A stretch of 33,980 bases of DNA from positions 1 through 33,980 of the forward strand of contig NZ_JAGEKP010000028.1 in the NCBI RefSeq assembly GCF_017565305.1, given 5' to 3'. The notes beneath the pieces are model-generated. The model was not told the origin of the DNA and did not search any database. It saw only the letters and a list, made by a program, of their open reading frames with translations. Below, one piece after another: positions 17,493 through 33,840 of this stretch (its first letter is position 1; every line of letters begins with the position of its first letter). The translations under genes and the position numbers were made by a program. The stretch comes from Leifsonia sp. TF02-11 (lineage in GTDB: Bacteria; Actinomycetota; Actinomycetes; Actinomycetales; Microbacteriaceae).

Positions 17493-17508
17493 AACCGGAA
17501 GTTCTAAG
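17493..17508 (+). promoter_or_regulatory. Transfer motif copy 1 (AACCGGAAGTTCTAAG)
   Basis: This 16-bp sequence also occurs upstream of ssb (25426-25441) and at the start of the relaxase gene (33825-33840, minus strand). Here it lies 28 bp before the lipoprotein ATG in an 83-bp gap. GAAC-N5-GTTC inside it is an inverted repeat. GATGCGCGCCAAA sits about 20 bp upstream, as in copy 3. It is probably an operator or promoter element. Confidence 0.65.
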
Positions 17509-17536
17509 CGAAGGGCACGAACCGAGGTGAAGTGAG

Positions 17537-18190
17537 ATGAACAAGAAACTGATCGCATTCGCGTCCCTCCTGCCATGCCTGACCCTCGTCGGCTGCGCCA
17601 CCGCAGCCCCGGCACAGAACCCGTCCTTCACGGCTATCGCACCGGCTAAGCCGTCACCGACTCGGTCGTCGGGCGCAATGCCGGCCGCATCGGGCATCGT
17701 TAGCAGCGTCTGGGTCGACGTCTACCCGGGCGCCACGTTCAAGTCGAAGCACGGCTGTCGCTGCACCCTTCCCGGCTCGTCCCAGGAACTTTTCCCGTCA
17801 GGAACTCCCGTGCTGCTGCTCAGGGTGACGATGACCGGCAAATGGATCCCCTCACAGGGGAACCAAGACTTCCAAGATGTCACGGGCGCAAGCGTCACAG
17901 GCGCCCAATTCGACGGGCGACCAGAGCCAGCTGTTCTCGACAAGTCGGACGGTCCGGCAGCCGCCAAGGCCGCGCGCATGGCTTGGCTACCGGCTGGTCT
18001 CTTCGCCGGACAGACCAAGTGGACAATATCCAACGAAAAGAGCCGCTCGTTCGCAGTCGCCTACTACTTGCCTCCGGGCGTGGACCAGCTTGAGCTAACC
18101 GTCAACGTGCCTTCCGAGGGTATGGCCAACGCGCTTACGGTTCCGCTTCCGACTTCCGCCGTCGAGGCGAGCAACGGCAAAGGCGAGTGA
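17537..18190 (+). CDS. Lipoprotein of the transfer operon
   Basis: This 217-residue protein has the signal MNKKLIAFASLLPCLTLVGC, with a lipobox LVGC and Cys20 the predicted lipidation site. A Pro/Ser/Thr-rich linker precedes a domain with VDVYPGATFKSKHGCRC, GTPVLLLRVTMTGKW and a C-terminal beta-rich segment ending LELTVNVPSEG. I recognise no enzymatic motif. Position between the hydrolase and the VirB2/VirB6-like genes suggests a cell-surface component of the secretion apparatus. A GAGGTGAAGTGAG ribosome region precedes the ATG. The stop overlaps the next gene (GTGA). Confidence 0.75.
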   Translation: MNKKLIAFASLLPCLTLVGCATAAPAQNPSFTAIAPAKPSPTRSSGAMPAASGIVSSVWVDVYPGATFKSKHGCRCTLPGSSQELFPSGTPVLLLRVTMTGKWIPSQGNQDFQDVTGASVTGAQFDGRPEPAVLDKSDGPAAAKAARMAWLPAGLFAGQTKWTISNEKSRSFAVAYYLPPGVDQLELTVNVPSEGMANALTVPLPTSAVEASNGKGE

Positions 18191-18375
18191 CCGATATGGA
18201 CCTGCTGCCAAGCATCCTCGGGCTTATCGGGCTGGCCTGTTTCACCGTGCTGGGCATCGGCGTTTCCGGCTGCCTCGCCGCGCGACGAATGGCGGCGGCA
18301 GACCGCTCCATCGCGTCCACCGACCCACAGAAGGAGATACCAAATCATGAACGCACTCAGCGAAGCCCTCACTAG
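18187..18375 (+). CDS. Small membrane protein in transfer operon
   Basis: This 62-residue protein has one hydrophobic helix (about 6-33, LPSILGLIGLACFTVLGIGVSGCLAA) and a basic then polar tail. Its GTG start overlaps the lipoprotein stop (GTGA), and its end overlaps the next gene by 29 bp. Tight coupling indicates it is translated. It may be a small scaffold or pilin-like subunit; nothing more can be said. Confidence 0.6.
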   Translation: MTDMDLLPSILGLIGLACFTVLGIGVSGCLAARRMAAADRSIASTDPQKEIPNHERTQRSPH

Positions 18376-18670
18376 CGCACACTGGCGCACATTGACCGTC
18401 CTGACGGTGAGCAATCCGTCGCCGGACTTCTCCGGCCCAGGCGTCGGCGCTCTCCAGTCGATCGCGAACGTCGTATTCGCGATCGTCCTCACTCTCGGCG
18501 TCATCGGCGGTCTGATCGCCGCCGGTTTCATCGTCGTCGGCCACATCTCCAGCAACGGACGGGTTCAGAAGATGGGCATCGTCGGTGTCGTCAGCTGTGT
18601 TGCAGGTGTCGCCGTCGCTGCTGGCATCGCAGGGCTGATCAACTGGGGTCAGTCACTGCACGTGGCGTGA
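18347..18670 (+). CDS. VirB2/TrbC-like small membrane subunit
   Basis: This 107-residue protein has two hydrophobic helices (about 40-65 and 77-98) joined by a short loop GHISSNGRVQKMG, preceded by a polar N-terminal region. Two-helix proteins of this size just before a VirB6-like gene are usual for VirB2/TrbC-type pilin or channel subunits, and this role is inferred from layout only. A good GAAGGAG ribosome site lies nine bases before the ATG, inside the preceding gene. The stop overlaps the next GTG start. There is no obvious signal-peptidase site. Confidence 0.65.
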   Translation: MNALSEALTSAHWRTLTVLTVSNPSPDFSGPGVGALQSIANVVFAIVLTLGVIGGLIAAGFIVVGHISSNGRVQKMGIVGVVSCVAGVAVAAGIAGLINWGQSLHVA

Positions 18671-19713
18671 TCATGATGTTTGTTCTCGCCGCATCGCCGG
18701 ATCCGTTCTCGCCGAACTACGGCTGCTTCATCTCTGACTTTGGCTGCCAAGCTTCGCAGACGATCGCCCAATTCATGGGCTCCACGATCCGCAACCTCGG
18801 CGACTTCATCGCCACCATGATCGCCGGGTCGTTCAACACGAACATCGACCCGGGCAGCTGGGAGATCGCCCACTCGCAGTTCCTGTTCTGGGTCGCAGTC
18901 ACCGCCCCGATCATCCTGATCGTCGCCCTGGTGCAAATCGGGATCGCCATGATCCTGCAGGACTGGGCACGCATCGGCCGCACCGCAGCTGGCGCCGCCC
19001 TCGCCGTCCCCTTCTCCGTGATCTGTGTGTGGGGGATGCAGAAGGCATCCGGGATCACCGATGATGTGACGCAATCGCTCACCACCGCGGTTCAAGGCGG
19101 CGACCTTAGCCAGAGTCTGCTCCGAGTGGTCGGGCTGTTCGACGCTCCCAAACAGATCAACGGGGCGGCGATGAAGACCATGCAGTTCTCACACGAAGGC
19201 GCGATCTTCGGTATGGCCACCCAGGGCGCTCAAGGGCCCGGCGCAGTCGGCGAGTACGTCATGGCCGTACTAGTGGTCGGGCTGATGATGATCGCCTCCC
19301 TGTTCCTGTTCATCGCTATGTCCATCCGCGAGTTCGGCCTCCTCGCGCTGGCGGCAATGGCTCCGGTCGGGTTGATGATGATCGGGCAGCCGAAGCTCAC
19401 CGCTTGGGCGAGCCGCTGGATCAACCTGACCGTCGGGCTCTTGATCGCGAAACCGCTTGCCGCCGGCGTTGTCCTTCTCGCTGTCGAGCTGACGAAGGCC
19501 AGTCTCAGCATCGGAGTCATCCTCGTCGCCGCCGGCGCCGTGATCGCCGCGTCGTTCTCCCCGCTGTGGGCCACCAAGCTCGTGTCCTTTGCAGGCGCCG
19601 AAGTTGGTACTGCTCTGCATCACCGTTTCTCCGTGCGCGACCAGTTCTCGCGCGTCAATACCGCCGCCGCACCGGTTCGCTCCGCGGCTCGGGTCATCAA
19701 GGTTGGGAGATAA
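18667..19713 (+). CDS. VirB6/TrbL-like inner-membrane channel protein
   Basis: This 348-residue protein has about six to seven membrane helices. An extracytoplasmic N-terminal part contains paired cysteines (NYGCFISDFGCQ) and QTIAQFMGSTIRNLGDFIA. Helices are at about 77-97, 107-125, 203-225, 228-248 and 260-306, with the loop AMSIREFGLLALAAMAPVGLMMIGQPKL. This size and pattern fits actinobacterial TrbL/VirB6-type conjugation proteins. It probably forms the membrane pore of the transfer apparatus with the SCO6880-like and ATPase products. The GTG start overlaps the previous stop; ATG codons at 18673 and 18676 are alternatives. Confidence 0.75.
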   Translation: MIMMFVLAASPDPFSPNYGCFISDFGCQASQTIAQFMGSTIRNLGDFIATMIAGSFNTNIDPGSWEIAHSQFLFWVAVTAPIILIVALVQIGIAMILQDWARIGRTAAGAALAVPFSVICVWGMQKASGITDDVTQSLTTAVQGGDLSQSLLRVVGLFDAPKQINGAAMKTMQFSHEGAIFGMATQGAQGPGAVGEYVMAVLVVGLMMIASLFLFIAMSIREFGLLALAAMAPVGLMMIGQPKLTAWASRWINLTVGLLIAKPLAAGVVLLAVELTKASLSIGVILVAAGAVIAASFSPLWATKLVSFAGAEVGTALHHRFSVRDQFSRVNTAAAPVRSAARVIKVGR

Positions 19714-19716
19714 CTC

Positions 19717-21252
19717 ATGACCACCTTCACCGCCGACCAGATCATCACCGAAGAAGGTGCACCCCGCGTCCGCTTCGCCGCCCGTGAACGCCGTGGCATC
19801 TTCCTCGGCCTCACCTTCCTCCAACTTGTCGTCATCGGGGGCGCCGTCGCCGCCCTGCTGGCAACGCTGTTCATCTACCCGAACGGGTTCTGGGTGATGC
19901 TGCCGCTAATCGCTCTGATCGTGTTCTTCGCACTCGCCACCTACCGGCGCGAGCCGGTGCTGGTGATCGCCGCCCAGGCCGCCCGATACGTGTACCGCAG
20001 CATCGCCGGTCAGACCGTGTTCCGCCGAGATGTCTGGCTTCGAGTCGCCACCGCGTCACTGAACATCGGCCACGCGCACGTTGCCGCGGTCACGCCGACC
20101 GTGACCTCGAAGTTCCTGCTTCCCGGAGCGCTGGGCGATGTGCAGATCATGCAGATCCCTGGGGCGGGTGCGTTCATTTACAACGCTCACGGTCGCCTGG
20201 CCTCCATCACCGTGCGGGTGGGATCCCGGGCGTGGGCACTGCGCGACAAGGGCACCCAAGAGTCGGCTTACGACGGTTTCGTCGAGTGGCTCAGCTCGCT
20301 GGAGAACCTGCCCGGCGTGCGCGAGACCACCATCCGCATCCGCGTAGACAGAGCCTCGTCTAACGAGCTCCGTGACTACCTCATCGCCCGAGAAGACGAA
20401 CACGCCCCACGGGTCAGCTCGGAATTGCGAGAGCAGTACTGGGAGCTGACCCAGGCCGCCTCGAAGCGGTCGATGGGATTCACCAACTACGTCACCCTGA
20501 CCTTCGACACTGGTGTGCTCAACGGGGCGATCCGCGACGCAGGCAAGGGGCTCACGGGACTTGCCGCCGTGCTGAAGGAGCGCGTGGCTGGCATCGAATC
20601 CTCGATGGAGCACGCCCGTCTCACCCCGGCCGGATGGCTGACCTCCGACGACCTGGACGAGCTGCTCGCACTCTCCGCTGACCCCGTCTCGTCGGCGACC
20701 CGGCGCGAGCGCGATGCCACCCTTGAGCCGCAGCCCGCACCTCCCGTAATGGGCATCGACGAGGGCTGGGACGCGATGCGCGTGGACGAGTCCTGGCACC
20801 AGACCTTCTGGGTCGCGGAATGGCCGCGCACTGACGTCCGCACCGGGTTCCTCGAACCGCTCCTCTACGCCGGGGACGCCACCCGAGTGATCACCCTGCA
20901 GGTTCGCCCGGTTGCAACACACAAGGCGCTGGCCCAGCTGAACCGGGCCCAGTCCGACATGGAGACATCTGCCACGATCCGGATGAAGCTGTCCTCCCGC
21001 GTGCCGCTCACCCACCTGCGCGAGGAGGAGGACCTGGCCGTACGCGAGCACGACCTCGTCGACGGCTTCGGCGACGTGCAGTACCGCGGCTTCGTCACCA
21101 TCTCCGCCGAGTCCAAGGACACACTGGCGAAAGCCAGGACGGATATCGAGCAGGCTTCCCACCCGGCACGGCTCGTGTTGGCGTCCCTGTCGGGGCAGCA
21201 AGCCGCCGGGTTCGTCACCGGCGCTTTGCCCGTGCCGCTGGAAGGGGAGTGA
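19717..21252 (+). CDS. SCO6880-family conjugation protein (PrgI/VirB3-VirB4 N-terminal-like)
   Basis: This 511-residue protein matches the SCO6880 family of actinobacterial conjugative systems. It opens with two membrane helices (about 28-48 and 53-70) preceded by RVRFAARERRGIFLGL, a PrgI/VirB3-like part. A long soluble region follows with FVEWLSSLENLPGVRETTIRI, SMGFTNYVTLTFD, RTGFLEPLLYAGDATRVITLQVRPV and KTDIEQ-type sequence, equivalent to the N-terminal domain of VirB4. It has no Walker motifs; those sit in the next gene, so a VirB4-type protein appears split in two. It follows the TrbL-like gene by 3 bp and ends just before the ATPase gene. Confidence 0.85.
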   Translation: MTTFTADQIITEEGAPRVRFAARERRGIFLGLTFLQLVVIGGAVAALLATLFIYPNGFWVMLPLIALIVFFALATYRREPVLVIAAQAARYVYRSIAGQTVFRRDVWLRVATASLNIGHAHVAAVTPTVTSKFLLPGALGDVQIMQIPGAGAFIYNAHGRLASITVRVGSRAWALRDKGTQESAYDGFVEWLSSLENLPGVRETTIRIRVDRASSNELRDYLIAREDEHAPRVSSELREQYWELTQAASKRSMGFTNYVTLTFDTGVLNGAIRDAGKGLTGLAAVLKERVAGIESSMEHARLTPAGWLTSDDLDELLALSADPVSSATRRERDATLEPQPAPPVMGIDEGWDAMRVDESWHQTFWVAEWPRTDVRTGFLEPLLYAGDATRVITLQVRPVATHKALAQLNRAQSDMETSATIRMKLSSRVPLTHLREEEDLAVREHDLVDGFGDVQYRGFVTISAESKDTLAKARTDIEQASHPARLVLASLSGQQAAGFVTGALPVPLEGE

Positions 21253-21257
21253 CGGCG

Positions 21258-22706
21258 ATGAAGCCCAGCACGGTTATCGGCCGCATCCCCGCCGACGAGA
21301 AGCCCGGCGCCAAGGGCCGCCGCCTCCGGAGCAGCAACGTGGACAAGAACTCGTCGTGGAAGATCCAGCCCGCGGAACTGCCGGCGTCGAAGATGCCGGC
21401 GTGGGGGTGGAAGCAGCCGCACAACCTGCGTGGCCCGCTGCGCGCTACCCCACCCGCGCACCGCTGTAGTTCGAAGGTGCTGGGTGGTGCGTACCCGTTC
21501 TTGGCCGAAACAGGGGACATCCTCACCGGGGCGTACATCGGCGAGAACCTGCTCTCGCGGGCCCCGTTCTGCTTCGACCCCTGGGACGCGTACTCCGCCG
21601 AGGCCGTCCGCTCGCACTCGGTGGCGATCCTCGGGGTTAAGGGGACCGGTAAGTCGATGCTGGCCAAGTCCTGGTCGTCCCGGTTGGCGCGGCTCGGCCG
21701 GAAAATCGCGGTGCCGCACGACCCGAACGGGGAGTGGGTCCGCGTCGCCGCCTACGTCGGCGGCACCTCCATCTCCGTCGGCCCCGGCAAAGCCGCCCGC
21801 ATCAACCTACTCGACGAAGGACCGCGAGACGCGTCGTTCTCGGACGAGGACTGGAACCAGAACGTCCTCCAATACCGACGTGCGACCGTGAAGACGATCA
21901 TCCGCCGGCTCCGCGAAGGCGGCAACCTGGAACCGGTCGAGCACACCGCCCTCGACATCGCACTCGACGCCCTCCACGGCCAGTCGACGGTGACCATCAC
22001 CCACGTCTACGACCGGCTGGTCGACCCCAACGAAGCTCTACCGCTCGAAGTCGCGGACGCCGGGCACCGGCTCGCGCATTCACTGCGCCGCATGGTCTCC
22101 GGCGACTTGACCGGCTTCTTCGACGGACCCTCCACGGTTCGCTTTGATGCGGATGCCCCGATGATGGTCGTCGACACCTCCGCCTTGAAGGGGGCATCCC
22201 CCGAGGCGCAGGCCTTGGCCCGCCTGGCGACGGCGAACTGGATCCGCCGCGCCAGCCTCGGCGCCAACCGTCAAGCCCGCGTCATCATCCACGAAGAGGC
22301 CGCCGTCGAACTCCTCAACGACGTCTCCGGCGGTGACGGCCTCGCCGACCGGGTCGAAGACGAGAAGGTCGCCCGTCACCTCGGCACCTCCAACTGGTAC
22401 CTCCTCCACCGCGTCGCCGACCTCGACGCTCTCGGCGACCGCAATAGCGCACTCCACTCCCGCGCGCTTGGTCTCCTCGCCGACTGCGAGACCCGCATCT
22501 CGTATGCACAGCACTCCGGAGAGATCGCCCGGTCCCGGGAAATACTCGGCTGGAACGACACCCAAGCCGACCTCGTCCGAAAGCTCCACAAGGGCGAAGG
22601 GCTCTGGCAGATCGGCCAAGACCGGGTCGCGAAGGTCCGCAACATCTGCACCGACTACGAACTCGGCGTCTTCCGCACCGACACCATGGGCGGTGAACGA
22701 GCGTGA
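21258..22706 (+). CDS. VirB4/TraC-like conjugation ATPase
   Basis: This 482-residue ATPase of the type IV secretion system has a Walker A motif LGVKGTGKSML (about 125-135) and a Walker B-like strand RVIIHEEAA. GTSISVGPGKAARINLLD and a C-terminal LHKGEGLWQIGQDRVAKV are typical of VirB4-like proteins in actinobacterial elements. There are no membrane helices, so it probably docks on the SCO6880-like membrane protein. A GTG at 21249 overlaps the previous stop (GTGA) and is also possible. ATG at 21258 is preferred because GGGGAG lies nine bases upstream. It powers assembly or substrate movement. The stop overlaps the coupling-protein start. Confidence 0.85.
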   Translation: MKPSTVIGRIPADEKPGAKGRRLRSSNVDKNSSWKIQPAELPASKMPAWGWKQPHNLRGPLRATPPAHRCSSKVLGGAYPFLAETGDILTGAYIGENLLSRAPFCFDPWDAYSAEAVRSHSVAILGVKGTGKSMLAKSWSSRLARLGRKIAVPHDPNGEWVRVAAYVGGTSISVGPGKAARINLLDEGPRDASFSDEDWNQNVLQYRRATVKTIIRRLREGGNLEPVEHTALDIALDALHGQSTVTITHVYDRLVDPNEALPLEVADAGHRLAHSLRRMVSGDLTGFFDGPSTVRFDADAPMMVVDTSALKGASPEAQALARLATANWIRRASLGANRQARVIIHEEAAVELLNDVSGGDGLADRVEDEKVARHLGTSNWYLLHRVADLDALGDRNSALHSRALGLLADCETRISYAQHSGEIARSREILGWNDTQADLVRKLHKGEGLWQIGQDRVAKVRNICTDYELGVFRTDTMGGERA

Positions 22707-24508
22707 GAAACGACCACTCCTCCTGGACCCACCTTGCCCTCTACAGCCTCTTCGCCATCGTGGTCGCCGGCGCGCTGACGACTTGTATCGCCAGCGCAAC
22801 CATCGCCGTGGCCTGCGGAGGTGGTAGTCAGCCTGACAGTGTGTTCGCCGGCCTCCAGCTGGCGATAAGTGGTGACCCGGGTGGCTTCAGTCTGGAGCCG
22901 GGATGCACCGCACCGGTCACCTGGATCCGTGTGCTCGACATCATCGCCGTACTCCTCCTTCTCGCCGCCGTCGCGGCAAGCGTGATCTGGTGGCTTCGGT
23001 ACCGGCAATCGGACCGGCACTTCATCCACGAGCTCCGCGGTCGCGACGGCCTCGCCAAGCCCAGCGAGGTGCGAAAGCACACCTCCGCTCGAACCGCCCT
23101 GCGCCGCGCCAAGGTACTGCGGCCGTCGCTTGCCCATCCGGAGCCCTCCTCTGCCGGGTGGAAGGTCGGCAGCGCCCACGGTCAGGACGTGTATGTGTCG
23201 ATCGAGGACTCGATCGTGGTCGAGGGCGCACCCCGGTCCGGCAAGGGGTATCGGTTCATCATCAACGCCATCCTCGACTGGGACGGCCCTCTGATCACCA
23301 CCTCCACGCGGAACGACAATCTCTCCGCCACCATGCGTGAACGCGCCCGGGCCGGCGACGTGACCGTGTTCGACCCACAGGAACTGACAGGCGTCCGCTC
23401 GGCACTGCGCATCTCACCGGTCACTGGCTGCGAGGACCCGCTCATCGCCGATCAGCGCGGCCAAGCGATCGTGGCCGGCACAGCCCTCGGCGCCTCGAAG
23501 ACCAACCAGGAATGGGCGCAGGTGTCCTCCTCCGTCCTCTCCCGGCTACTCCATGCGGCCGCCGTCTCCGGCCGCGGAATCGACGCGCTCGCCCGGTGGG
23601 GCTCCAACCCGCGGCTCGCTCAGGAAGCGGTCGGGGTGCTCGCAAACCAGGGCACGCCGGGCTGGTCCGAGGACCTGGACGCGATCATTAACGGCGACGA
23701 GAAGCTCCTCGCCAACTCCTGGTTCGGCGTCTTCGGCTCCCTCCGCCCACTGTCCATCCCAGCAATCCGCAAGGCGATGACACCGGGCCCGGGGGAGCAG
23801 TTCGACCTCGACGCGTTCCTCGCCGGTCCCAACAGCCTCTACCTCGTCGGCACCGGCGCCGGTGCCGGCTCAGTTGGCGGGTTCCTCGGCGCGATCCTCG
23901 ACGACATCGTCGAGACTGCCCGCCGCAAGGCTCTCGCCTCACCCGGCTCCCGCCTCGACCGGCCGCTCGCGCTGATCCTGGACGAGATCGCGAACATGTT
24001 CTCCTGGCCAGCGCTGCCGCGGATCATGGCCGACGGCGGCGGCATCGGCATCTCCACCGTGGTCGTGCTCCAGGCGCTCTCGCAGGCTGAAACCGCGTGG
24101 TCGCGATCGGAGGCTGACACGATCTGGTCCGCCGCCACCGCCAAGCTCCTGCTTGGTGGCGCGTCCGACGTCGACCACCTCCGCGACATCGAATCCCTGC
24201 TCGGGTTGCGTCGGATCCGGAACACCGGGCACTCGTACAACGACAACGGTTCCTCCACGAACGTGCAGCACGAGAAGGTACCGGTAATGACGATCGACGA
24301 GATCCGCCGCATGCCCGAAACCGTCGGACTCCTCGCCTACCGCAACCGGCGCGGCATCCTCCTCGACCTCCGCGGGTGGACCGACCGCGACGACGCCCAC
24401 CAGATCCGCACCGGGAAGAAACTCACCGAGCTCGACCAGCAGGCCGTGTTCGCCGAGCAATATCAAGCCGCCCTCGATCGCCGAGGATCAGCGGGAGAAG
24501 ACCACTGA
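22703..24508 (+). CDS. VirD4/TraG-like type IV coupling protein
   Basis: Coupling proteins bring the relaxase-DNA complex to the channel. This 601-residue protein has two N-terminal membrane helices (about 11-37 and 76-98) around an extracytoplasmic loop with two cysteines, then a cytoplasmic ATPase domain. Walker A is VEGAPRSGKGYR (about 173-184) and Walker B is LALILDEIANMF (about 416-427). GIGISTVVVLQALSQAETAW and AATAKLLLGGASD are the conserved C-terminal blocks of TraG/TraD-type proteins. GTG at 22703 overlaps the ATPase stop (GTGA). The short C-terminal tail is charged and may contact the relaxase. It is intact and a defining gene for self-transfer. Confidence 0.9.
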   Translation: MRNDHSSWTHLALYSLFAIVVAGALTTCIASATIAVACGGGSQPDSVFAGLQLAISGDPGGFSLEPGCTAPVTWIRVLDIIAVLLLLAAVAASVIWWLRYRQSDRHFIHELRGRDGLAKPSEVRKHTSARTALRRAKVLRPSLAHPEPSSAGWKVGSAHGQDVYVSIEDSIVVEGAPRSGKGYRFIINAILDWDGPLITTSTRNDNLSATMRERARAGDVTVFDPQELTGVRSALRISPVTGCEDPLIADQRGQAIVAGTALGASKTNQEWAQVSSSVLSRLLHAAAVSGRGIDALARWGSNPRLAQEAVGVLANQGTPGWSEDLDAIINGDEKLLANSWFGVFGSLRPLSIPAIRKAMTPGPGEQFDLDAFLAGPNSLYLVGTGAGAGSVGGFLGAILDDIVETARRKALASPGSRLDRPLALILDEIANMFSWPALPRIMADGGGIGISTVVVLQALSQAETAWSRSEADTIWSAATAKLLLGGASDVDHLRDIESLLGLRRIRNTGHSYNDNGSSTNVQHEKVPVMTIDEIRRMPETVGLLAYRNRRGILLDLRGWTDRDDAHQIRTGKKLTELDQQAVFAEQYQAALDRRGSAGEDH

Positions 24509-25379: not shown

Positions 25380-25425
25380 GCGAGCCTCCGGGTTGCGCGC
25401 TATTTGAGCGCATTTTCCGTCTTTG

Positions 25426-25441
25426 AACCGGAAGTTCTAAG
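25426..25441 (+). promoter_or_regulatory. Transfer motif copy 2 upstream of ssb
   Basis: AACCGGAAGTTCTAAG is identical to copies at 17493 and 33825. It lies 45 bp before the ssb start, in a 107-bp gap that also contains GTTGCGCGCTATT about 32 bp upstream of the motif. It probably marks the ssb promoter or operator. Confidence 0.65.
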
Positions 25442-25486
25442 TGAAAGCGACCCGAACAGCGGGCGCAGACCGAAAGGAAGAGAACG

Positions 25487-25930
25487 ATGAGCACACGAGT
25501 CCCGATCAGCATCGAAGGCAACCTCGTCGCCGACCCCGACTTCGGCGAATCGCAGAACGGCACCAAGTTCGCCAAGTTCACCGTCGCCGTCACCGACCGC
25601 AAGCAAGTCGACGGCAAATGGGTCGACGGCGACACCCAGTACCACCGCACCACCGTATTCGGACGCACCGCCGAGAACGTCCGCGCCAGCCTCGCCAAAG
25701 GCGACACCGTCATCGTCAACGGCAACCTCGAATTCCGCCACTGGACCGACCAAGCCACAGGGGAGCCCCGAGCCGCCACCGAAGTCGTCGCGGACAGCGT
25801 CGGCCCCTCCCTCCGCTACACCACCGCAGAGGTCACCCGACGCGCCCCAAAAGCTGATGGCCCGGAAGCGTCAGCGGCCGGGCCGATGGCCACCAACGAG
25901 ATGGCCAGCCGCAGTACATCGATGGCCTAA
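25487..25930 (+). CDS. ssb: Single-stranded DNA-binding protein
   Basis: This 147-residue OB-fold SSB has VPISIEGNLVADPDFG, KFAKFTVAVTDR and the conserved YHRTTVFGRTAENV followed by GDTVIVNGNLEFRHW. The C-terminus is short, ends RSTSMA, and lacks the acidic DDxIPF tip used by chromosomal SSBs to recruit partners, so it likely only coats the transferred strand. GAAAGGAAGAG is the ribosome site. A strong terminator follows, making ssb a single-gene unit under the shared transfer motif. An SSB on a conjugative element protects incoming single strands in the recipient. Confidence 0.93.
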   Translation: MSTRVPISIEGNLVADPDFGESQNGTKFAKFTVAVTDRKQVDGKWVDGDTQYHRTTVFGRTAENVRASLAKGDTVIVNGNLEFRHWTDQATGEPRAATEVVADSVGPSLRYTTAEVTRRAPKADGPEASAAGPMATNEMASRSTSMA

Positions 25931-25934
25931 CACT

Positions 25935-25965: not shown

Positions 25966-26127
25966 TTTGTGTTGACGACTCCCGCACTGCGATCCTTCTC
26001 GTGCTTTGCGGATGCCGAAAGCGATCTGGTCCGGGCACCCCGTATCGCCCGCTGTGGTGAATGTGAGGCTGTCGCTACGGACGCAATAATCGCTCACGCA
26101 CATTTTGGCGCAGCCGAGGCTATGTTC

Positions 26128-26949
26128 TCAACTGGCGGGGCTGATGCCAGGAAGCCCCGCTTCAAGCCGTTCGTAACGCCGCGGCTCCGTCGGGGCAGCG
26201 ACATTCTCTGTCCAGGGAAACGGTGGCTCGGTTTGGACGAGCAATCGCGAGCCGTCGCGCCGGAAGAAGCGGAAGTCGCCGTTGAATTTGAACGTGTCAC
26301 GCACGTTCATTCCAGGGTCGCGAATCCAAACCTCGACGTCGAATAGCCAGTTCTGGGGACGACCAAGGTCTTCTTCAGTTTGAAGGGCGAAGGTACTGAC
26401 GGTCCGCTCCCACGACACATTCGCTTCCTCGCCAGGGCCCAAGACAAGTTCATCTCCAGACCGCACGGACATGACCCCGTTCGCTGAGTAGACGAACGCC
26501 ACACGGGCGATTCGATCCGAAACATTTTTGACCGTGATAACCGCGGTGGTACGGAAGACGGCGGACTCCGATTCATTCAGTTCGAGCGAGTTCGAAACAT
26601 CTACCCAGTCTCCGGATTCATCCCGTATCTCGAGCCGCCCAGGCCGGGCCCGTGCGACAACGCTTGGGGCTACCTGATCAAGGCGGGACTCAATCTGCCA
26701 ACGCTCGGCCCGCTTGCGAGAAGCCTCCTGTGCCGCACCAGTCTCCTTGGCGTCGCGAGCTTCATCTCGTGCCAGAGCAAGCTGCTCGAGTCCTGTCTCG
26801 TGCTGCAGCGCGGCTGAAATCGCCTGCCTCTTCGTCCAATGGGCCGCTCGGCCGGCGAATGCGGCTGCCACCGCGGCGGCAACGAGCGTGAGCACGGCAG
26901 CACCAGCGGTGATCCAGTTGGGAATTCCGTCCCAGAAGACGTCAACCAT
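26128..26949 (-). CDS. TM-anchored coiled-coil protein, unknown
   Basis: This 273-residue protein begins with a short polar stretch and one membrane helix (WITAGAAVLTLVAAAVAAAFAG). A charged coiled coil (about 35-85, with LARDEARDAKETGAAQEASRKRAERWQ) follows. The C-terminal beta-rich domain (about 95-260) contains TTAVITVKNVSDRIARVAFVY and LVLGPGEEANVSWERTV, reminiscent of an Ig-like fold. I recognise no family. ATG at 26949 is chosen because the membrane helix follows at once; there is no ribosome site and CAATAT lies eight bases upstream, allowing a leaderless start. It is divergent from the HEPN-motif gene and forms the left edge of the cargo. Confidence 0.65.
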   Translation of the reverse strand: MVDVFWDGIPNWITAGAAVLTLVAAAVAAAFAGRAAHWTKRQAISAALQHETGLEQLALARDEARDAKETGAAQEASRKRAERWQIESRLDQVAPSVVARARPGRLEIRDESGDWVDVSNSLELNESESAVFRTTAVITVKNVSDRIARVAFVYSANGVMSVRSGDELVLGPGEEANVSWERTVSTFALQTEEDLGRPQNWLFDVEVWIRDPGMNVRDTFKFNGDFRFFRRDGSRLLVQTEPPFPWTENVAAPTEPRRYERLEAGLPGISPAS

Positions 26950-27052
26950 ACGCACAACATATTGGCATCGAACGGCGGGGGCGATGTCTTGCGCCATTGT
27001 CGGACGCAACATGTCTTCTGTTCTTTGTCACGAGGTGCGCAAGGATCAAGTC

Positions 27053-28421
27053 ATGTGGCCAAGCTATGTCGTGACTGGTGACCTGAGACGCGACGGACAC
27101 GCCTTTCGACCAGAGATCACTTGGCCGGAACTCAGAGTGGTTCTTGATCCACAGGCGCAGATGGACACCGCCGTCGCAGAGTATTTCAACGTCCTTCAGA
27201 GCCAGCCAGCTGGAGTACGTCTCTTCGTCGAGGGCGCGCAAGAAGAGGACATTGCCGACACTTACTATGTTCCTAACGAGCGACATGACGGCAACGGCGT
27301 CGTGTGCGTGCACGGAGATCGCGGGATCTCGACCCACGGGCTCTTCTCGCTTGAGAACAATCTTCAGGCCGCATTCAATTGGGCCAAGCATTGGAACTTT
27401 GATCCCTACCAGGCGCGAACGAGGCAGATCTACGCGGAGATCGCGACCGCGCTTCACGCCGACATATTGGTAACCGACAACGAGTTCGCGCTTGCGAAGC
27501 CGAATCGTCTGTCGGCCTTCGCGGTGGGACCGCGCGAGTCCTTGGCGATAGTCGGATTACACCAACGGCTCAGGGGCATAGTTGCGATCAACCGCGACCT
27601 CTTCGACGGCGTACTAGCAACGTGGCAAGTCGAACACGCACAAGCGTGGTCGATGATCCCCACATTGCGCGACCTCTTCGACCACACGTTCAAGAGCGGC
27701 GATGACGCGTTCCTAGATCTCATACGTGCAAGCGGCAATCGGTTAAAGCGAGTGCTTGACCTGCGAGACAGGCTCTTGTTCGAGAGCGTCCATCCAAATG
27801 AGCCCACTCTATTCGGGGAGCCCGAAGCGCTCGTTGAACAAATCGCATTGAACCTCAGCGGGATGCTAGATGCGCTAGCGCGTGCGATGAACGTGGCTCT
27901 TGGGCTTGATATCCGACCAGCGAATTGCTCGTTGGCGCGGAGGGACTTCCAGGGCAAGCTGAGTGAGCCGGTTCAGCGCATTCTTAAAGAACCGGTCAGC
28001 GTCGCGGTGATGACTCTGGTTCGAGAACTCCGCAACACCATTCATCATGAGGATCTGGGAGGCGGAAGGGGACCGGTCTGGTCGCACGACAGCCCGGCTG
28101 GTATCCGTCGACGACGACACTGCTGAGTTGATTCGAGAAACATCAGCAGTACTCGACCGCAATGGGTCTTGGATCGCACATGACTTGGATCAGTTTCGCC
28201 TAATGGCGCGACCCGTGCCGCTTGTGGAGGACCTAATTCAGTGTGTCGCGCGATTGGTTCAAGAGGTAGCTGGCGCCGCAGGCTGGCCGTCGGGGCTACC
28301 GCGCGCGGACGAGCGTGGCGAGGACGATCCGCGCAACTGGGCGAGATTTGCGCCAACGATTGAGGTGGTCAATCTCCTCTACGGCATCGATATGAGCGGC
28401 TCAGGCCCGCTGGACCGGTAG
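27053..28421 (+). pseudogene. HEPN-motif protein, single frameshift
   Basis: One reading frame runs from ATG 27053 (AAGGA seven bases upstream) to a stop at 28124. Its end loses protein character after LRNTIHHED, while the adjacent frame continues with EAEGDRSGRTTARLVSVDDDTAELI up to 28421. Removing one G from GGG at 28057-28059 joins them into about 455 residues with a natural-looking junction. The frame break follows RELRNTIHH, which fits the Rx4-6H motif of HEPN ribonuclease-like domains; many HEPN proteins act in toxin or anti-phage systems. The N-terminal half is unrecognised. The extra G may be a real mutation, a sequencing error or programmed frameshifting. The gene looks less GC-biased than the transfer genes. 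Confidence 0.6.
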
Positions 28422-28537
28422 TAACCCCGACAGGCCTAGTTGAGGCGCGCGGTTTGTCTAACGGGGCACTCTTGGAGAGGGGCCCTTCCTGGCCCCAGAT
28501 GAAGTGGGCCTCTATTAGGCTCCAGCTGGAGGACCTG

Positions 28538-29017
28538 ATGACCGATATGGACGCCGCCGCCGAGCTAGAGTCGATGCTTGCCACCCATCCCGGAAAGCTG
28601 AAGACACTCAATGACGAGCTCGATCGACAACGGGACATCTACTCTTCCCGCGCATCCTCGGTACAAGCCCGGGCCGCAATCCTTATCGCTACCGCCGGCC
28701 TCGGCGCGGGGCTTCAGTCCGCCCATCTAACGGGAGGCTGGTACATCCTCGCAGTCATCTTCGCTGCAGTGGCCGCCGGTCTCGGCATTGCCGCGACTCG
28801 TCCCAGATACGGCGGCGAGATCAATCTCGCATCCCTTCGCGACACCTTATTCGCGTCCGAAGAGAACACCGGTCTCCTGAAACTTATCGACGCAAAGATC
28901 GAGGTTCACGAAACGGACGAGAAGCGTCTAAACGCGATGGGCGAATTTCTTCGTTGGGGATTTGTTTCACTGGCTGTTTCTATCGTCTTCACATTGTTAG
29001 CCGTACTCAACGTCTGA
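28538..29017 (+). CDS. Multi-TM effector-like membrane protein
   Basis: This 159-residue protein has a helical N-terminal region (about 1-42, with LKTLNDELDRQRDIYSSRASS) and two adjacent membrane helices (about 45-62 and 68-84). A soluble loop contains LIDAKIEVHETDEKRLNAMGE, and a last helix (about 133-155) precedes the C-terminus. The layout and VQARAAILIATAGLGAGL recall SLATT- or PycTM-type membrane effectors of nucleotide-triggered anti-phage systems; this is a resemblance, not an identification. The start at 28538 is set by GGAGG five bases upstream. Two tiny genes follow at once. No cyclase or nucleotide-synthesising gene is adjacent. Confidence 0.65.
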   Translation: MTDMDAAAELESMLATHPGKLKTLNDELDRQRDIYSSRASSVQARAAILIATAGLGAGLQSAHLTGGWYILAVIFAAVAAGLGIAATRPRYGGEINLASLRDTLFASEENTGLLKLIDAKIEVHETDEKRLNAMGEFLRWGFVSLAVSIVFTLLAVLNV

Positions 29018-29025
29018 GGAGTCCC

Positions 29026-29172
29026 ATGTCTGATAGGTCAAAGCCCTCTCCCGCCCCGAAATCCAAAGTGCCGCCCGTTCAAAAAGTTCCCGGGCTGGTA
29101 GCGAATGTGATCAAGCACAGCTCGGGTGGAAACACCGACTCGAGGCCGCTGCCGAAGCCTGACAAGCGATAA
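29026..29172 (+). CDS. Tiny protein A, partner of the membrane protein
   Basis: This 48-residue, basic, Pro/Ser/Lys-rich protein contains PAPKSKVPPVQ and a short hydrophobic helix-like stretch GLVANVIKHSSGG. GAGGAG lies four bases before the ATG and only 8 bp separate it from the membrane-protein stop, so it is very likely translated. It resembles the following tiny protein in MSD.S...PAP..S, V.PP.Q and the K.SG end. No family is recognised. Confidence 0.6.
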   Translation: MSDRSKPSPAPKSKVPPVQKVPGLVANVIKHSSGGNTDSRPLPKPDKR

Positions 29173-29176
29173 GCGA

Positions 29177-29314
29177 ATGAGCGACGACAGCGAATCCATC
29201 CCGGCACCGCAGGCGAGCGTCATCCCACCTATCCAGGACACCGCCGAAATCATTCGTGGAGTGCTGAAGGCAAGCGGGGCGCCAGTTCGCCCGGGTGATG
29301 ACGAGGACCGCTAA
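29177..29314 (+). CDS. Tiny protein B, resembles tiny protein A
   Basis: This 45-residue, acidic protein reads MSDDSESIPAPQASV, then IPPIQDTAEIIRGVLKASG and a charged tail. It aligns with the preceding tiny protein over about 34 residues, sharing MSD, PAP, PP.Q and the K-x-S-G end, but has the opposite net charge. It begins 4 bp after that gene. The ribosome site is weak (AAGCGA). Opposite charge could allow the two to bind each other; this is speculative. Confidence 0.5.
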   Translation: MSDDSESIPAPQASVIPPIQDTAEIIRGVLKASGAPVRPGDDEDR

Positions 29315-29547
29315 CTAATGCCCAGCTGAGCAACGCTTAAATGGTCATGTCGTTGCTACCCGTGAACGTGGGTTCGACCGCGCGTCGCGGAGGCTACGCG
29401 CTTGTCTCATGTGAGCAGAGGCCCAATCGCGCCGTTTTCATCCGAAGGCGTCATCAACGTGTCGCGGCGCTTACCCATGCGTCGCTGTTGCAGTCCGGGG
29501 CGGTCCAGTGCCACGCCGGGATGCTTCCTGTGGAACCATACTGAGTT

Positions 29548-30423
29548 ATGGCTTCCAAAGCGCTCGACCCGGGTCGCTATACAGATCCCGTAAGCCAACC
29601 GGCCCCGGAGGGGCACCAGCATGGCCCGGGTTGGGTGGCAGAGCTCGAGTACCGGCCACTAGACGGCGGTCCGATCCAGGCCGTTGAGATGCACGGGCCT
29701 TCCGAAGAGATTGCACGAACAGAGCTCTTGGAATGGGTTCGCGCCACGTTAGGCCAAGTGCAGTCGATGGCGCCCCGTTCCCCGGCGGTCGAGAAGTTCA
29801 TTGAGGCGGCGAGCCACATGCATGACCTTCGACAGGCGGCAAAGGCGCTGGAAAAGGCAAATTCTGCCAAAGGTACCGACATCGCGAGGTTCCTTCGCTC
29901 GTACGCAGTTGTCACTTACTCTCGGACGCGCGGCTCGAACGTACGTCCCGATCTCGACAAGTTCATCGCTCTTGGGGCAGACGACATCGCGCTCTCGGCT
30001 CAGCTGAAGACACTTCGTAACAAGTTCGTCGCTCACTCAGAAAATCGGATGCTCACCACAACGCCAATAGTCGATCTTCGGCGTCAGCCAGATGGAGCCA
30101 TAGCAGTAGATGAGGTATTCGGCATAACGGTCGAGACCCCTATCCCACACGAAGTGATCCGAAATTTCGAGGCAATGCTTGAGCGCCTAATTGCAAAGCT
30201 CACGCACGCCTTGACTCCCCTCAAAGCCGAGGTGACCGCTGAGATCAGTCAAGTCGATGCAGAAGAAATGCTCGCCCACCCCAAGCGCCTTCAGTTCATT
30301 CCGGTGCCAGTTTCGGACTGGTCACCAGACGGAGCGCGGCCCCGGTATCCCAAATCGCAGTTTGCCCCCGTTCACATCGTGCCGAGCGGCGAAACATCAA
30401 CGCAGGTAACAATCACGAAGTGA
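29548..30423 (+). CDS. HEPN-like protein (AbiU2-type motif), putative defence
   Basis: This 291-residue cytosolic protein has no membrane segments. A helical region from about 78 to 225 contains LKTLRNKFVAHSENRML (about 152-168). The RN....AH pattern is the R-x4-6-H catalytic signature of HEPN ribonucleases and is typical of AbiU2-like proteins that act by RNA cleavage. The N-terminal part (GWVAELEYRPLDGG, a small beta sheet) and the C-terminal PVPVSDWSPDG segment are unrecognised. ATG at 29548 lacks a ribosome site, but CATACT lies five bases upstream, consistent with a leaderless start. It is a single gene in the defence-like cargo. A non-defence HEPN role is possible. Confidence 0.65.
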   Translation: MASKALDPGRYTDPVSQPAPEGHQHGPGWVAELEYRPLDGGPIQAVEMHGPSEEIARTELLEWVRATLGQVQSMAPRSPAVEKFIEAASHMHDLRQAAKALEKANSAKGTDIARFLRSYAVVTYSRTRGSNVRPDLDKFIALGADDIALSAQLKTLRNKFVAHSENRMLTTTPIVDLRRQPDGAIAVDEVFGITVETPIPHEVIRNFEAMLERLIAKLTHALTPLKAEVTAEISQVDAEEMLAHPKRLQFIPVPVSDWSPDGARPRYPKSQFAPVHIVPSGETSTQVTITK

Positions 30424-30676
30424 TCGGAGTTTGTGCGTCAACACGTCCACAAGCCGCCTTTTCTTGTTGTGTATGTTCGCGAACCGCACGGCTGTATTCC
30501 GCCGAGGACGCCGGCTCCGCGACAGAGACGATGCCCGCATAGTCTGGGCGATTGTTCTGCCAGAAGAGGGTTCGCTTCGCTGAGCTCCTTGTTCGAAGCG
30601 AGGGCCGCTAGGGTCGAGAGGCATTCGCACCAGGCCTCAGGACTAGTGGTCGGATGCCAGTGGTCCGGAGCAGACT

Positions 30677-31084
30677 ATGCGCGTGAGTGTTGAACCGCCT
30701 TTACCGAGACCATGGGGAGTTTCGGATCACCAAGCGATCGAACTGTGCCGGGAGTGGATGGTCCACCTCGGCGCAATTGACGCGCGGGCGGCGGGGGCGT
30801 CGTCCAATCATGTTTGCGACCTTTACAGCTCACAATTCCTCGGTTGGGTCGCAAGCCGGTCAGCAAACATCGACGTTGATCTTGTTGAGCGAGCCGCGGC
30901 GGCCGCAGCAGGAGACGGGCGATGCCCTCTGGTTTTCGTGCCGGGTGGAGTGTACCCGGAAGCCCGTGATCGAGCCGATGCGCTTGGCGTTGCCCTCCTT
31001 CGCTACCGGGCACAGGACGGCGCGTTGGACGGTGTCAACGGGCTCGGTCGGGAAGCCCGGGCCTTTGGACTGGCTAAGCGATAG
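30677..31084 (+). CDS. Restriction-endonuclease-like protein, possibly degenerate
   Basis: This 135-residue protein has SDHQAIELCREWMVHLGAIDA (a helix typical of the start of Mrr-like folds), then CDLYSSQFLGWVASRSANIDVDLVERAAAAAAG, and LVFVPGGVYPEARDRADALGVALLRY. The last block matches the end of Mrr-like PD-(D/E)xK domains, where the text usually reads F.S..GYT..A...A...GI.L. The middle should carry D...QxK; here D is present (CDLYSSQF) but the Q-x-K Lys is not, so catalysis may be lost. GGAG lies seven bases before the ATG. It is convergent with the relaxase gene, 27 bp apart. The 253-bp gap before it shows no gene. Confidence 0.55.
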   Translation: MRVSVEPPLPRPWGVSDHQAIELCREWMVHLGAIDARAAGASSNHVCDLYSSQFLGWVASRSANIDVDLVERAAAAAAGDGRCPLVFVPGGVYPEARDRADALGVALLRYRAQDGALDGVNGLGREARAFGLAKR

Positions 31085-31111
31085 CCGCAATCACCGGCCG
31101 GGGGGCGACAC

Positions 31112-33823
31112 CTAGTCCAGATGTGCCGCCGTGGACGGCCTCGGCTCACTCTGGGCTGCGCGATTGAATTCAGCTCGCGCTGCCGTCCGGGATGCATCCA
31201 AAGTCTCTTCGATGGGTGTGCGCTGCATCATCTCTACGAGCTGCGTTTTCGCGGAAGCCTGGGTCGGCGCGACGAGAACGATGTCGTTCGTACTCTTGCC
31301 TCGAGTGAGGCCAACGTACAGTCCCGCGGCGTCGATGCCGGGTCCAACAAGCGCGCGATCTGTCGTTTCGCCCTGGACTCCGTAGACAGTCGACGCATAG
31401 CCAAGGTGCATGTGGGCGTTCGCGTATTCGCGTGTGACCATTTTGAGATCGGTCGAGTCTGAGGTCGATGCAAGAACAACATGGGCCTCGGTTATTCGCT
31501 TGACTGTCCAATGCTGACGGTTTTGAACGGCGGCCTGCCGATCGTTTCGACGAGTCTGGACGACGTCTCCGACGAAGATTGCCTGGCCGCCCTGTCCAGA
31601 TGTGGACTGAGAAGTGTCAAGTTCGCCGGCTCGGATTCTCTGATTTTGGATGTCCTCACTTACGGCCAGCGCTTCAGCGTGCGTTGAAGCAACCAGGGCA
31701 ATCGTCTGCCGCTGCTCGTTCGCCTCGAACCAGGCAGAGACCATTTTGGTTCGAGCCTCGTACTCGCTATTCGCAAGAACTACGTGGCCAGTGTGGACTA
31801 GTTCGTCGGCGACGATCTCGGATCCCTCGCGACCATTTGGATCGCGCAACCTGAGTGTCAGCTCTGCCCAGGAGGGATCCGTGAACCGATGGATCGCCGT
31901 AAGTTCGACCTGATCCGCGGAGTGAGCCCAGAAGAGAGCCATCGCCCCGGAGTGTCCGACCGGCAGCGCCTGACGTTCGTCGCCGATCAGTGCCACCGTC
32001 GACTGAGTTCGTTCCAACACCTGGACAAGTGCGTTGGCTGACTCAAGATCGAGCATCCCGGCCTCATCCACTACGATCCGGTCACCGGGATAAATCGCAA
32101 TGCGCGGACCGTCGTACGCGACTCCTGTATCGCGATCAAGCTCGCCGACCTGAAGACAGCGCCAAACAGTTGCGCCGGCCTCGTCCACCGCCCAACGCCA
32201 GCCATGGTCGTGCAACAGCTGATGCAGCGATGACGACGCGCTCTGTGTTTCACGTCCGGCCACGGCAGCCGCTTTCTTCGTCGGTGCAACGATAATCATC
32301 CTCCGCCCACGACGTCGAAGGGCTGCGCCGGCGACCTTAAGCATCGTCGTCTTGCCCGTCCCTGCAGCGCCGGAGATCGCCACACTTCTCGAGCTCCCAG
32401 CTATGACCGCCGCACCAGCAACTTGTCCTCTGTCGAGCGAACGCGCTGGTTCAATTGCTTGTCCAACTTCCTTCACCTCGGCGGCGCTCAGCGCGCTGCC
32501 CGGGATGGAAATCCGTTCGACTCTTTGCGCCAAAGTGGCCTTGAGAGTCGCGGTCGCCGTGGCCATCCGTCGCTTGATGTGCGCCGGGACGTTCGCGTCG
32601 CTGAGGAGTGTCACCGTGTGAGCGCTCGTGGCGTGGGCAACTACCTCGTCAACTAATGCTGCCAAGCGTTGCCGGTCGGCGACGACTCCAGAACTGGCGA
32701 TTGCCCGAATCACCCCGGCCCGGACGTCCAAGTCGCTGAATCTTCCTCCCGTACGGGTCGATCGGGCATCCGCATCGACAATGGCCTTCGCGGCGAGGAT
32801 CTCGACGTCGAGTTCTTCGAAGGCGACCGGTCGCGTCACTGCTATCGTCCGCGGTCGGCTCAGATCCGGGTCGGCGTTTAGCATCTCTGCTGTCACCATG
32901 GAGGACCAGTCGTCCTCGCTCAGCGGCCCCGGCTTGTTCGGCCGGCCGGCTGCCCACGCCCACTGGTCAACCTGAGCCAGCACCGTGGAGGACGGCTCCT
33001 CACCCGGGTGTTGCTCCCTCCACGTGCGGAGGTGATCCGCCTTGTTTGCTTCGATCTGTGCGGACCGCTTCGAAAGCGGCTGCACAACATGCCGCAGTTG
33101 CGCGATCTCCCCATCCGAATCTAGTGTGAAGCCTTTGGCTGCCAGCGCGGCTATCCACACAGGATCGGTCCTAGAAGCGAGGTCCCCCTCCGCATTCACG
33201 ACGTTCTGGAACCGCAACGCCACCCGTGTGTCGACGTTTGACCACTTCCCGTTCACGCCCTGGACTTTGACGTTCAACCACAGGTGACGGTGCTTGTGCG
33301 GGTCCAGCGAACGGGACCGTTCATGCCGCAGCTCGACAACCTCGATCCTGGCAAGATCTTCCCGGATGGCACCCTGCTTGCCTCGGCGGGCGTTGAGCTC
33401 GCTCTGCCACAGCTTCACGATGCGGTCCCGCAACCGGTCCTGCAGATCCTCGTACGCGGCCGCCAAATCCGCGTCCAGCATCGCCGCGATCGAGAACGAC
33501 TTGGGTGCGTTGATCGTCGCATCGAGGATGAGATCAGCGACAGGCGACTCCAGGTCTCGGCCACGGCGCTCGCCGCTGAGCGGGTCGACACCGTCCACCC
33601 AATCCTTCAGCTGTGACCGCGTTAGAAGGTCCTCTCGGATGGCGCCATTCTCGACGATGTACCGGGTCATGACCGCGTCCGCATAGCCGGCCGCAGCGAG
33701 TACGCCGTCGGCAGTTTTGGCCGTCAGGGTCGCATCACAGACGCCCCCGAAGGCGTAATGCACAGCCTGCTTGACCCCCTGGGCTGCCTGCCCGCGTTTC
33801 CAGCGCGCCACTCCACCTCTCAC
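31112..33823 (-). CDS. MobF-family relaxase-helicase (TraA/TraI-like)
   Basis: This 903-residue protein nicks oriT and unwinds the transferred strand. The N-terminal relaxase domain (about 1-300) has NAPKSFSIAAML (105-116) and the metal-binding histidine triad in DPHKHRHLWLN (His176, His178, His180); tyrosines at 23, 47 and 55 are candidates for the nucleophile. The C-terminal helicase has Walker A GAAGTGKTTML, Walker B VVDEAGML and the superfamily-1 motif GYASTVYGVQGETTDRAL, then LYVGLTRGK. GTG at 33823 is preferred because the text VRGGVARW begins there and GGAAG lies eight bases upstream; GTG 33811 and ATG 33862 are alternatives. Transfer motif copy 3 overlaps the start region. It points inward from the element's right side. 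Confidence 0.9.
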   Translation of the reverse strand: MRGGVARWKRGQAAQGVKQAVHYAFGGVCDATLTAKTADGVLAAAGYADAVMTRYIVENGAIREDLLTRSQLKDWVDGVDPLSGERRGRDLESPVADLILDATINAPKSFSIAAMLDADLAAAYEDLQDRLRDRIVKLWQSELNARRGKQGAIREDLARIEVVELRHERSRSLDPHKHRHLWLNVKVQGVNGKWSNVDTRVALRFQNVVNAEGDLASRTDPVWIAALAAKGFTLDSDGEIAQLRHVVQPLSKRSAQIEANKADHLRTWREQHPGEEPSSTVLAQVDQWAWAAGRPNKPGPLSEDDWSSMVTAEMLNADPDLSRPRTIAVTRPVAFEELDVEILAAKAIVDADARSTRTGGRFSDLDVRAGVIRAIASSGVVADRQRLAALVDEVVAHATSAHTVTLLSDANVPAHIKRRMATATATLKATLAQRVERISIPGSALSAAEVKEVGQAIEPARSLDRGQVAGAAVIAGSSRSVAISGAAGTGKTTMLKVAGAALRRRGRRMIIVAPTKKAAAVAGRETQSASSSLHQLLHDHGWRWAVDEAGATVWRCLQVGELDRDTGVAYDGPRIAIYPGDRIVVDEAGMLDLESANALVQVLERTQSTVALIGDERQALPVGHSGAMALFWAHSADQVELTAIHRFTDPSWAELTLRLRDPNGREGSEIVADELVHTGHVVLANSEYEARTKMVSAWFEANEQRQTIALVASTHAEALAVSEDIQNQRIRAGELDTSQSTSGQGGQAIFVGDVVQTRRNDRQAAVQNRQHWTVKRITEAHVVLASTSDSTDLKMVTREYANAHMHLGYASTVYGVQGETTDRALVGPGIDAAGLYVGLTRGKSTNDIVLVAPTQASAKTQLVEMMQRTPIEETLDASRTAARAEFNRAAQSEPRPSTAAHLD

Positions 33824-33824
33824 A

Positions 33825-33840
33825 CTTAGAACTTCCGGTT
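33825..33840 (-). promoter_or_regulatory. Transfer motif copy 3 at the relaxase start
   Basis: AACCGGAAGTTCTAAG on the minus strand is identical to the copies at 17493 and 25426. It ends one base before the chosen GTG start, so its GGAAG could serve as ribosome site here, unlike the other copies. GTGCGCGCCAAA lies about 20 bases farther upstream, as in copy 1. Confidence 0.65.

Follow-up and report, generated by a model that had tools for sequence, protein, structure and literature searches.

A two-part promoter-like element at the transfer genes of a Leifsonia conjugative element and its probable reading by an element-borne sigma factor

The transfer genes of an integrative and conjugative element (ICE) from Leifsonia sp. 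TF02-11 are preceded by a two-part element with the geometry of a promoter. The ICE was analysed in a stretch of 33,980 nucleotides (contig NZ_JAGEKP010000028.1, positions 1 to 33,980; hereafter the window), and we consider it highly probable that a 16-bp motif found there is the −10/start half of dedicated promoters, which are read by the ICE's own sigma factor of the extracytoplasmic function (ECF)-like type, have diverged with it in classes, and are also carried by satellites. The sequences themselves show the sites, their spacing, their association with genes and their covariation with the sigma-like protein.

According to the mechanism that we propose, the ECF-like sigma, encoded just upstream of the type IV secretion system (T4SS) operon, would, once made, recruit RNA polymerase to the T4SS operon, to ssb and to the relaxase gene (and, in related elements, to the integrase gene), and so turn transfer on. 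Sigma and promoters would diverge together into classes, and mobilizable elements that have neither sigma nor T4SS, yet carry promoter copies before their relaxase genes, would be started by the sigma of a helper ICE in the same cell. Both the identity of the protein as a sigma factor and its reading of these sites are inferred; the start points and the timing given here are likewise conditional.

Two-part element and its distribution

The original prediction pointed to three identical 16-mers at the starts of functionally linked transfer units. All three copies of AACCGGAAGTTCTAAG are indeed exact (17493–17508 and 25426–25441 on the plus strand, 33825–33840 on the minus strand), with one copy each before the T4SS operon, before ssb and before the relaxase gene of the ICE. 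Even with up to three mismatches the window count remains three, against 0.12 expected, and none of 100 shuffles reached three, which rules out a chance origin of the repeat. A regulon site common to the three units is thus well supported, although three units proved too few, since the site is also found before integrase genes in other elements and before the relaxase genes of many small ones.

The 16-mer is the downstream half of an element of about 42 bp, TGCGCGCC-N13-AACCGGAAGTTCTAAGTGAA, which has fixed spacing and a single orientation in the three window copies. The upstream box is in register in all of them, exactly 21 bp before AACC. Copy 1 (17472..17513, plus strand) has the −35-like box TGCGCGCC at 17472–17479, followed by N13 and the 16-mer, and lies before the lipoprotein/T4SS operon; copy 2 (25405..25446, plus strand), before ssb, has TGAGCGCA at 25405; and copy 3 (33820..33861, minus strand), before the relaxase gene, has TGCGTGCC at 33861, each again with N13 and the 16-mer. 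The upstream boxes of copies 2 and 3 are imperfect, and all three copies belong to class A of the promoter classes described below. The sequence GCGCGCCAAA, which had been placed about 20 bp upstream of copies 1 and 3, is found at 20 bp in copy 1 but at 31 bp in copy 3. What did not survive is the inverted repeat GAAC-N5-GTTC: its first G varies within class A and its right half is replaced in other classes, so that an inverted-repeat operator is ruled out. Hence, of the proposed regulon operator, the shared regulon site stands, but 'operator' and 'inverted repeat' are unsupported because the element is asymmetric, directional and two-part.

With its two boxes, fixed spacing, mostly unconserved spacer and one orientation to the gene, the element shows the features of a sigma-type promoter. 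A weight matrix built on 65 class A/B sites, all outside the window, scored the three window sites at 54.8, 45.0 and 41.0; the next-best site in the window scored −7.4, and the best across five mononucleotide shuffles −3.1. The same scan of the window gave no promoter copy before the sigma gene itself, and the 465 bp between the end of an excisionase-like open reading frame and the sigma gene (15145–15609), to which no gene was assigned, are likewise devoid of one. In the proposed promoter, the −35-like box TGCGCGCC(AAA) is followed about 17 bp on by GGAAGTTCTAAG, and transcription is predicted to begin some 11 bp beyond the G of GAA. The predicted starts are at ~17509 (copy 1), ~25442 (copy 2) and ~33824 (copy 3), the last adjoining the GTG at 33823. 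The relaxase message is possibly leaderless, since taking G27 of the element as −11 would put its start at position 38, just before that GTG.

In its own genome (5.09 Mb, 50 contigs), the 16-mer with up to two mismatches occurs at eight places (six exact, one with one mismatch and one with two), against one for the reversed-pattern control. That genome also has an ICE on contig C23, whose probable relaxase gene is on C38, as well as a third ICE split over C49, C41 and C25 and a small element on C9. With one mismatch allowed, 15 of 60 genomes, own included, contain the 16-mer; all are of the same genus, and the control gave no hits. A host-wide motif is ruled out by this confinement to one genus and by the location of the sites, mostly at transfer genes; the random chromosomal occurrence that would have told against the original prediction was not observed in the motif search.

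The composite pattern GCGYG-N18-CGGAANKWSTARG, which covers classes A and B, has 86 matches at up to one mismatch in 28 genomes of the genus (own included): 41 before relaxase genes, 32 before lipoprotein genes or ssb, five before integrase genes and eight unexplained. All 63 exact matches are at transfer genes (relaxase, T4SS-lipoprotein, ssb or integrase), and the eight unexplained ones, two of which were inspected, are all among the 23 with one mismatch. The reversed pattern gives 50 matches at the same tolerance, and one-mismatch matches therefore need gene context. A composite for class C has 37 matches, four of them apparently away from transfer genes (one of these four was inspected). 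Of 109 distinct sites in the fetched DNA, 106 are at transfer genes and three elsewhere, a biased count because most of that DNA was fetched around good-looking sites. The sigma gene is matched in 14 of the 28 genomes (E 1e-10), G007 having a fragment and G024 a 36% relative. Among 398 genomes of the family, exact matches to a class B–F pattern occur in 17 (reversed control, 1); four genomes outside the genus, G292, G418, G112 and G075, appear to be chance matches, as no searched window gene matches within 1.5 kb. Separately, a distant ICE at locus L075 (sigma 34%) has TGCGCGCC and AAGTAC at similar spacing about 60 bp before its lipoprotein gene, perhaps the same promoter type.

Sigma-like protein and promoter classes

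The proposed reader is encoded at 15610..16353 (plus strand) and has a sigma2 domain and two tandem sigma4-like domains. The sigma2 and the −35-binding sigma4 domains were both detected; the curated ECF family model TIGR02937 scored 17.7 bits against a cut-off of 42.9, and the protein is therefore named ECF-like, without assignment to an ECF group. In the predicted structure (predicted local distance difference test, pLDDT, 82; predicted template modelling score, pTM, 0.55) the sigma2 domain resembles SigR and E. coli sigmaE by fold search, rows other than sigma factors being disregarded. The C-terminal half predicted alone reached a pLDDT of 94, and sigma4 matches it twice (residues ~100–176 and ~179–246). 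The A1 profile also gave a weak match (E 0.15) to a de novo designed protein.

In ICEs whose sigma-like protein has diverged, the downstream box has diverged correspondingly, usually at all operons read. Class A has the box GGAAGTTCTAAG, with sigmas 78–99% identical to one another; class B, four elements, has GGAACGTGTAAG or close to it (sigma 66–74% identical to that of the window); and class C has ACAACGTGTARG (sigma 52%). The remaining classes come from other genera: class D with GGGAACGTGCAGG or similar (sigma 63–64%), class E with GGGAACGTGTAAG and TGGAACTTGTAGG (55%), and class F with GCAACGTGYARG and a relaxase variant GCAAGTAATAAG (59%). VirB4 is at least 90% identical among classes A–D, with E and F at 82–89% against the others. 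The last recognition-type helix of the sigma, IHPGSARARIA, is nearly invariant across the classes, as is the −35 box, and sigma2 residues 66 and 79 vary between classes along with the downstream box. In a by-eye alignment to Mycobacterium tuberculosis sigmaH, residue 66 would lie within the specificity loop or beside it, and residue 79 would face N92 of sigmaH. In sigmaH that loop (residues 72–79) accommodates the flipped −9 base, while N92 makes contact with the −11 pair (PMC6411747).

The covariation can be put in numbers. Counted in 14 positions, the boxes before the lipoprotein gene and ssb differ by 2.46 mismatches within an element and 4.64 between elements (13 elements); the corresponding values are 1.45 and 4.04 for lipoprotein and relaxase boxes, and 1.45 and 3.55 for ssb and relaxase boxes (11 elements each). 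With one element per class, the agreement within elements has p 0.004–0.014; p-values from all elements are optimistic because the elements are related. Motif distance tracks the sigma more closely than VirB4. A held-out case was provided by the third ICE of the own genome. Its sigma, encoded on C49, has 72% identity with its class C counterpart in G027, against 47–57% with the others, and the contig ends just behind the sigma gene; the class C composite has sites before the lipoprotein gene on C41 and the relaxase gene on C25, and ssb on C25 shows ACACAACGTGTAAG by eye. That the three contigs form one ICE we infer from gene content: in this genome the sigma gene and the set of T4SS genes each occur three times.

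Several observations weigh against reading by the sigma. The XRE-like regulator of the ICE comes close to it in correlation with the motif (r 0.69 versus 0.73; near full-length proteins, 10 elements; in an earlier Mantel version, r 0.68, 0.59 and 0.58, where the sigma had a wider lead, the XRE pieces of several elements were cut by locus ends). G015:C17 is a counter-example, with a class A lipoprotein box and class B ssb box, relaxase box and sigma; G140 has no relaxase site and G174 no clear site; and class C ssb sites are without the usual upstream box. Of the two readers named by the original prediction, the sigma-like protein is nonetheless the best-supported, given the promoter geometry and a downstream box that varies with sigma divergence, and the sigma alone separates class A from class B. 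As to G015:C17 (L076) itself, it is a mosaic ICE, and its VirB4 match is in two pieces with a stop.

Copy 2 has a second TGCGCGC (25394..25400, plus strand) at exactly 11 bp before its −35-like box, and copy 3 has one at 11 bp as well (33866..33872, minus strand). Allowing one mismatch, it is found at exactly this distance at all 16 ssb sites and 30 of 39 relaxase sites of class A/B, but never at the 13 lipoprotein, five integrase or 33 class C sites; in control windows the count did not exceed 0.3 in any group. Because the duplicated box coincides with two sigma4-like domains, it suggests, speculatively, a double −35 contact.

Small mobilizable elements and alternative explanations

The 28 genomes of the genus have 55 relaxase rows, which correspond to 53 loci, as two genes are each split over two rows. 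Only an A/B site precedes 19 of these, only a class C site two, both sites 22 and neither site nine; the last one, G008:C3, has a class C site and an A/B site with one more mismatch. Tandem promoters of two classes are thus carried by 22 of 23 small mobilizable elements, and by all 23 at the relaxed tolerance. Of the 18 loci with a VirB4 match, taken as an independent mark, within ~25 kb on the contig, 16 carry exactly one class, and two distant ones, G024:C17 and G000:C7, none. Five further loci have a single site: three on breaking contigs (C38, G020:C8 and G020:C19), and two (G004:C1:3341478 and G009:C1:1666054) with no VirB4 nearby.

At the 23 two-class loci any VirB4 on the same contig is at least ~90 kb distant, and the 6–17 kb fetched downstream gave no match to T4SS or sigma. 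All 23 have a relaxase gene, and 15 an integrase homologue ~0.55 kb behind it (C9 and G024:C21 are near contig ends). The class C site is 157–306 bp upstream of the A/B site, whose box is often intermediate (GTAATAAG or CTTGTAAG). Genomes with no VirB4 match at E 1e-50 (G007, G008, G009, G012, G013, G014 and G018) account for eight of the 23, and one further such element, with relaxase and tandem sites, is found in another genus (G035). By sequence, then, these elements have what would mark them as satellites, namely a helper's sites before transfer genes. That they are bilingual, woken through their tandem promoters by either of two helper sigma classes, with a sigma whose two sigma4-like domains read −35 boxes repeated at an interval of one helical turn, is a proposal to which we give even chances. 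In a separate group (L184, L185, L186, L187 and L190), the relaxases are 65–66% identical to that of the window; four have neither promoter nor T4SS match in the fetched stretch, and the fifth, L190, is at a contig start.

Could the site instead bind a conventional activator, either the XRE-like regulator or the sigma-like protein as a mere DNA-binding activator, that aids host sigma70 polymerase in the manner of AcaCD/SetCD? Such activators run known transfer regulons (PMC4344509), and the XRE-like regulator is conserved in these ICEs, its divergence correlating with the motif over all classes at the r of 0.69 given above. The conserved block, however, spans both the −35 and −10 positions, and the site is asymmetric. 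Moreover, XRE identity is 70% between two class A elements and 70–73% between the window and class B; the correlation speaks for the XRE-like regulator, but this protein is less favoured because it does not separate classes A and B, where the motif changes. A scan of 14800–18000 for sigma70-like promoters found none, which says little because only 0.4 were expected. We regard activator binding as unlikely.

Two further explanations are far less probable still. A leader RNA element common to the operons, for example for antitermination or leader-peptide control, would agree with the position of the block just upstream of genes and with the reading frames that, by eye, cross copy 3. Against it, the distance from block to start codon varies from ~1 to 79 nt, no reading frame is kept between copies by eye, which rules out a leader peptide, and the open reading frames behind class C sites of mobilizable elements have little in common beyond the first few residues. 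We think it equally improbable that the copies are functionless and were homogenised by recombination within the element; copies within one element are more alike than those between elements, and G015:C17 looks recombinant at its lipoprotein site, but the boxes agree between operons, unlike the flanks and most of the spacer, and unlinked small elements keep these boxes.

ICE layout and relation to known systems

The window has the genes that together identify an ICE, namely integrase, relaxase, coupling protein and VirB4-like ATPase, as called with Pfam and NCBIfam; several matches are below the curated cut-off, including those of the VirB4-like ATPase, the integrase and the XRE-like regulator. 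The tyrosine integrase is encoded at 13045..14208 (minus strand), with a tRNA-Val gene ~9 kb from it at 3996–4085 (minus strand), and the XRE-like regulator, the rival candidate reader, at 14251..14844 (minus strand). Overlapping the sigma stop codon is a gene (16350..17453, plus strand) for a protein that has a membrane helix at its N terminus and a large domain behind it. It has no match in Pfam or NCBIfam; checked as an anti-sigma, this neighbour showed the membrane helix and no family match, and by eye it is a possible cell-wall hydrolase. Behind promoter copy 1 are the first gene of the T4SS operon, lipoprotein-like by eye (17537..18190, plus strand), and the T4SS core (18347..24508, plus strand), which encodes a small membrane protein, a pLS20_p028-like membrane protein (weak), an SCO6880 family protein, the VirB4-like ATPase and a TraG/TraD-type coupling protein. 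In the ICE loci with continuing contigs, the sigma gene is directly before an overlapping or adjoining membrane-protein gene, followed by the lipoprotein-T4SS operon.

The single-strand binding protein gene ssb (25487..25930, plus strand) is behind promoter copy 2, and the MobF-type (TrwC domain) relaxase-helicase is encoded at 31112..33823 (minus strand), with GTG 33823 (MRGGVARW) as its likely start; in four related loci the aligned stretch contains an in-frame TAA, by eye upstream of this GTG. A further motif, ATGCACG(T/C)AGGCAC, is at 33897–33884 (minus strand) and, by eye, is kept within ~130 bp before relaxase starts. It is also upstream of the relaxases in L011, L075, L078, L079, L081, L082 and L184–L188, is absent in L080, and occurs at promoterless relaxases, not always in frame. 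We note it as a candidate origin of transfer (oriT)/nic region or old start codon.

If our proposal is true, a conjugation regulon would be run by the element's own sigma, sigma and promoters would evolve as matched sets, and satellites would carry promoters of two helper classes. The classes would then provide ready-made variants with which to match sigma residues to the promoter bases they read, and helper-satellite eavesdropping in conjugation would become testable by sequence alone.

Orf7 of Tn916 is a sigma-like regulator on an integrative conjugative element; we know of no shared-promoter regulon or satellite link for it. A search of the literature, with most subscription papers outside its coverage, found no conjugation regulon that is run by a sigma factor and has satellites with two classes of promoter, and nothing on helper-satellite eavesdropping in conjugation for this bacterial group. 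In one review, the five passages found on sigma factors, actinobacteria or Streptomyces mention a sigma factor solely in connection with phrI of ICEBs1 (PMC6540685).

That satellites read a helper's regulator (AcaCD, SetCD) and that a plasmid can encode a sigma factor (SigN) is already known. SigN (ZpdN) of the Bacillus subtilis plasmid pBS32 resembles the present case as an alternative sigma factor that a mobile replicon supplies itself. It is reported to lead to cell death after DNA damage, and the abstract-level accounts of it include no conjugation regulon or satellites (PMC6751061, PMC10601692). With M. tuberculosis SigH (PMC6411747) and Streptomyces SigR, the ICE sigma would share the sigma2 fold, the two-part promoter with strict spacing and a −10 box read by the sigma2 specificity loop. 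It differs from them in its two tandem sigma4-like domains, its GC-rich −35 box, the lack of a recognised anti-sigma and its location on an ICE.

The closest likeness in organisation is to the AcaCD and SetCD regulons of IncC plasmids and SXT/R391 ICEs, with the satellites SGI1 and the mobilizable genomic islands (MGIs), as outlined in PMC4344509 and PMC5704250. There too, the helper encodes a master regulator that activates the transfer operons, and sites for this regulator on mobilizable islands let these move along with the helper. The regulator in those systems belongs to the FlhDC-like activator family, however, and SetCD acts as an activator whose site adjoins the −35 box (PMC4344509), whereas in the Leifsonia system the candidate regulator is sigma-like, the whole promoter is specific and its likely reader is a sigma factor. 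Unlike SGI1 and the MGIs, moreover, the small elements of Leifsonia have a MobF-type relaxase of their own and two promoter classes in tandem.

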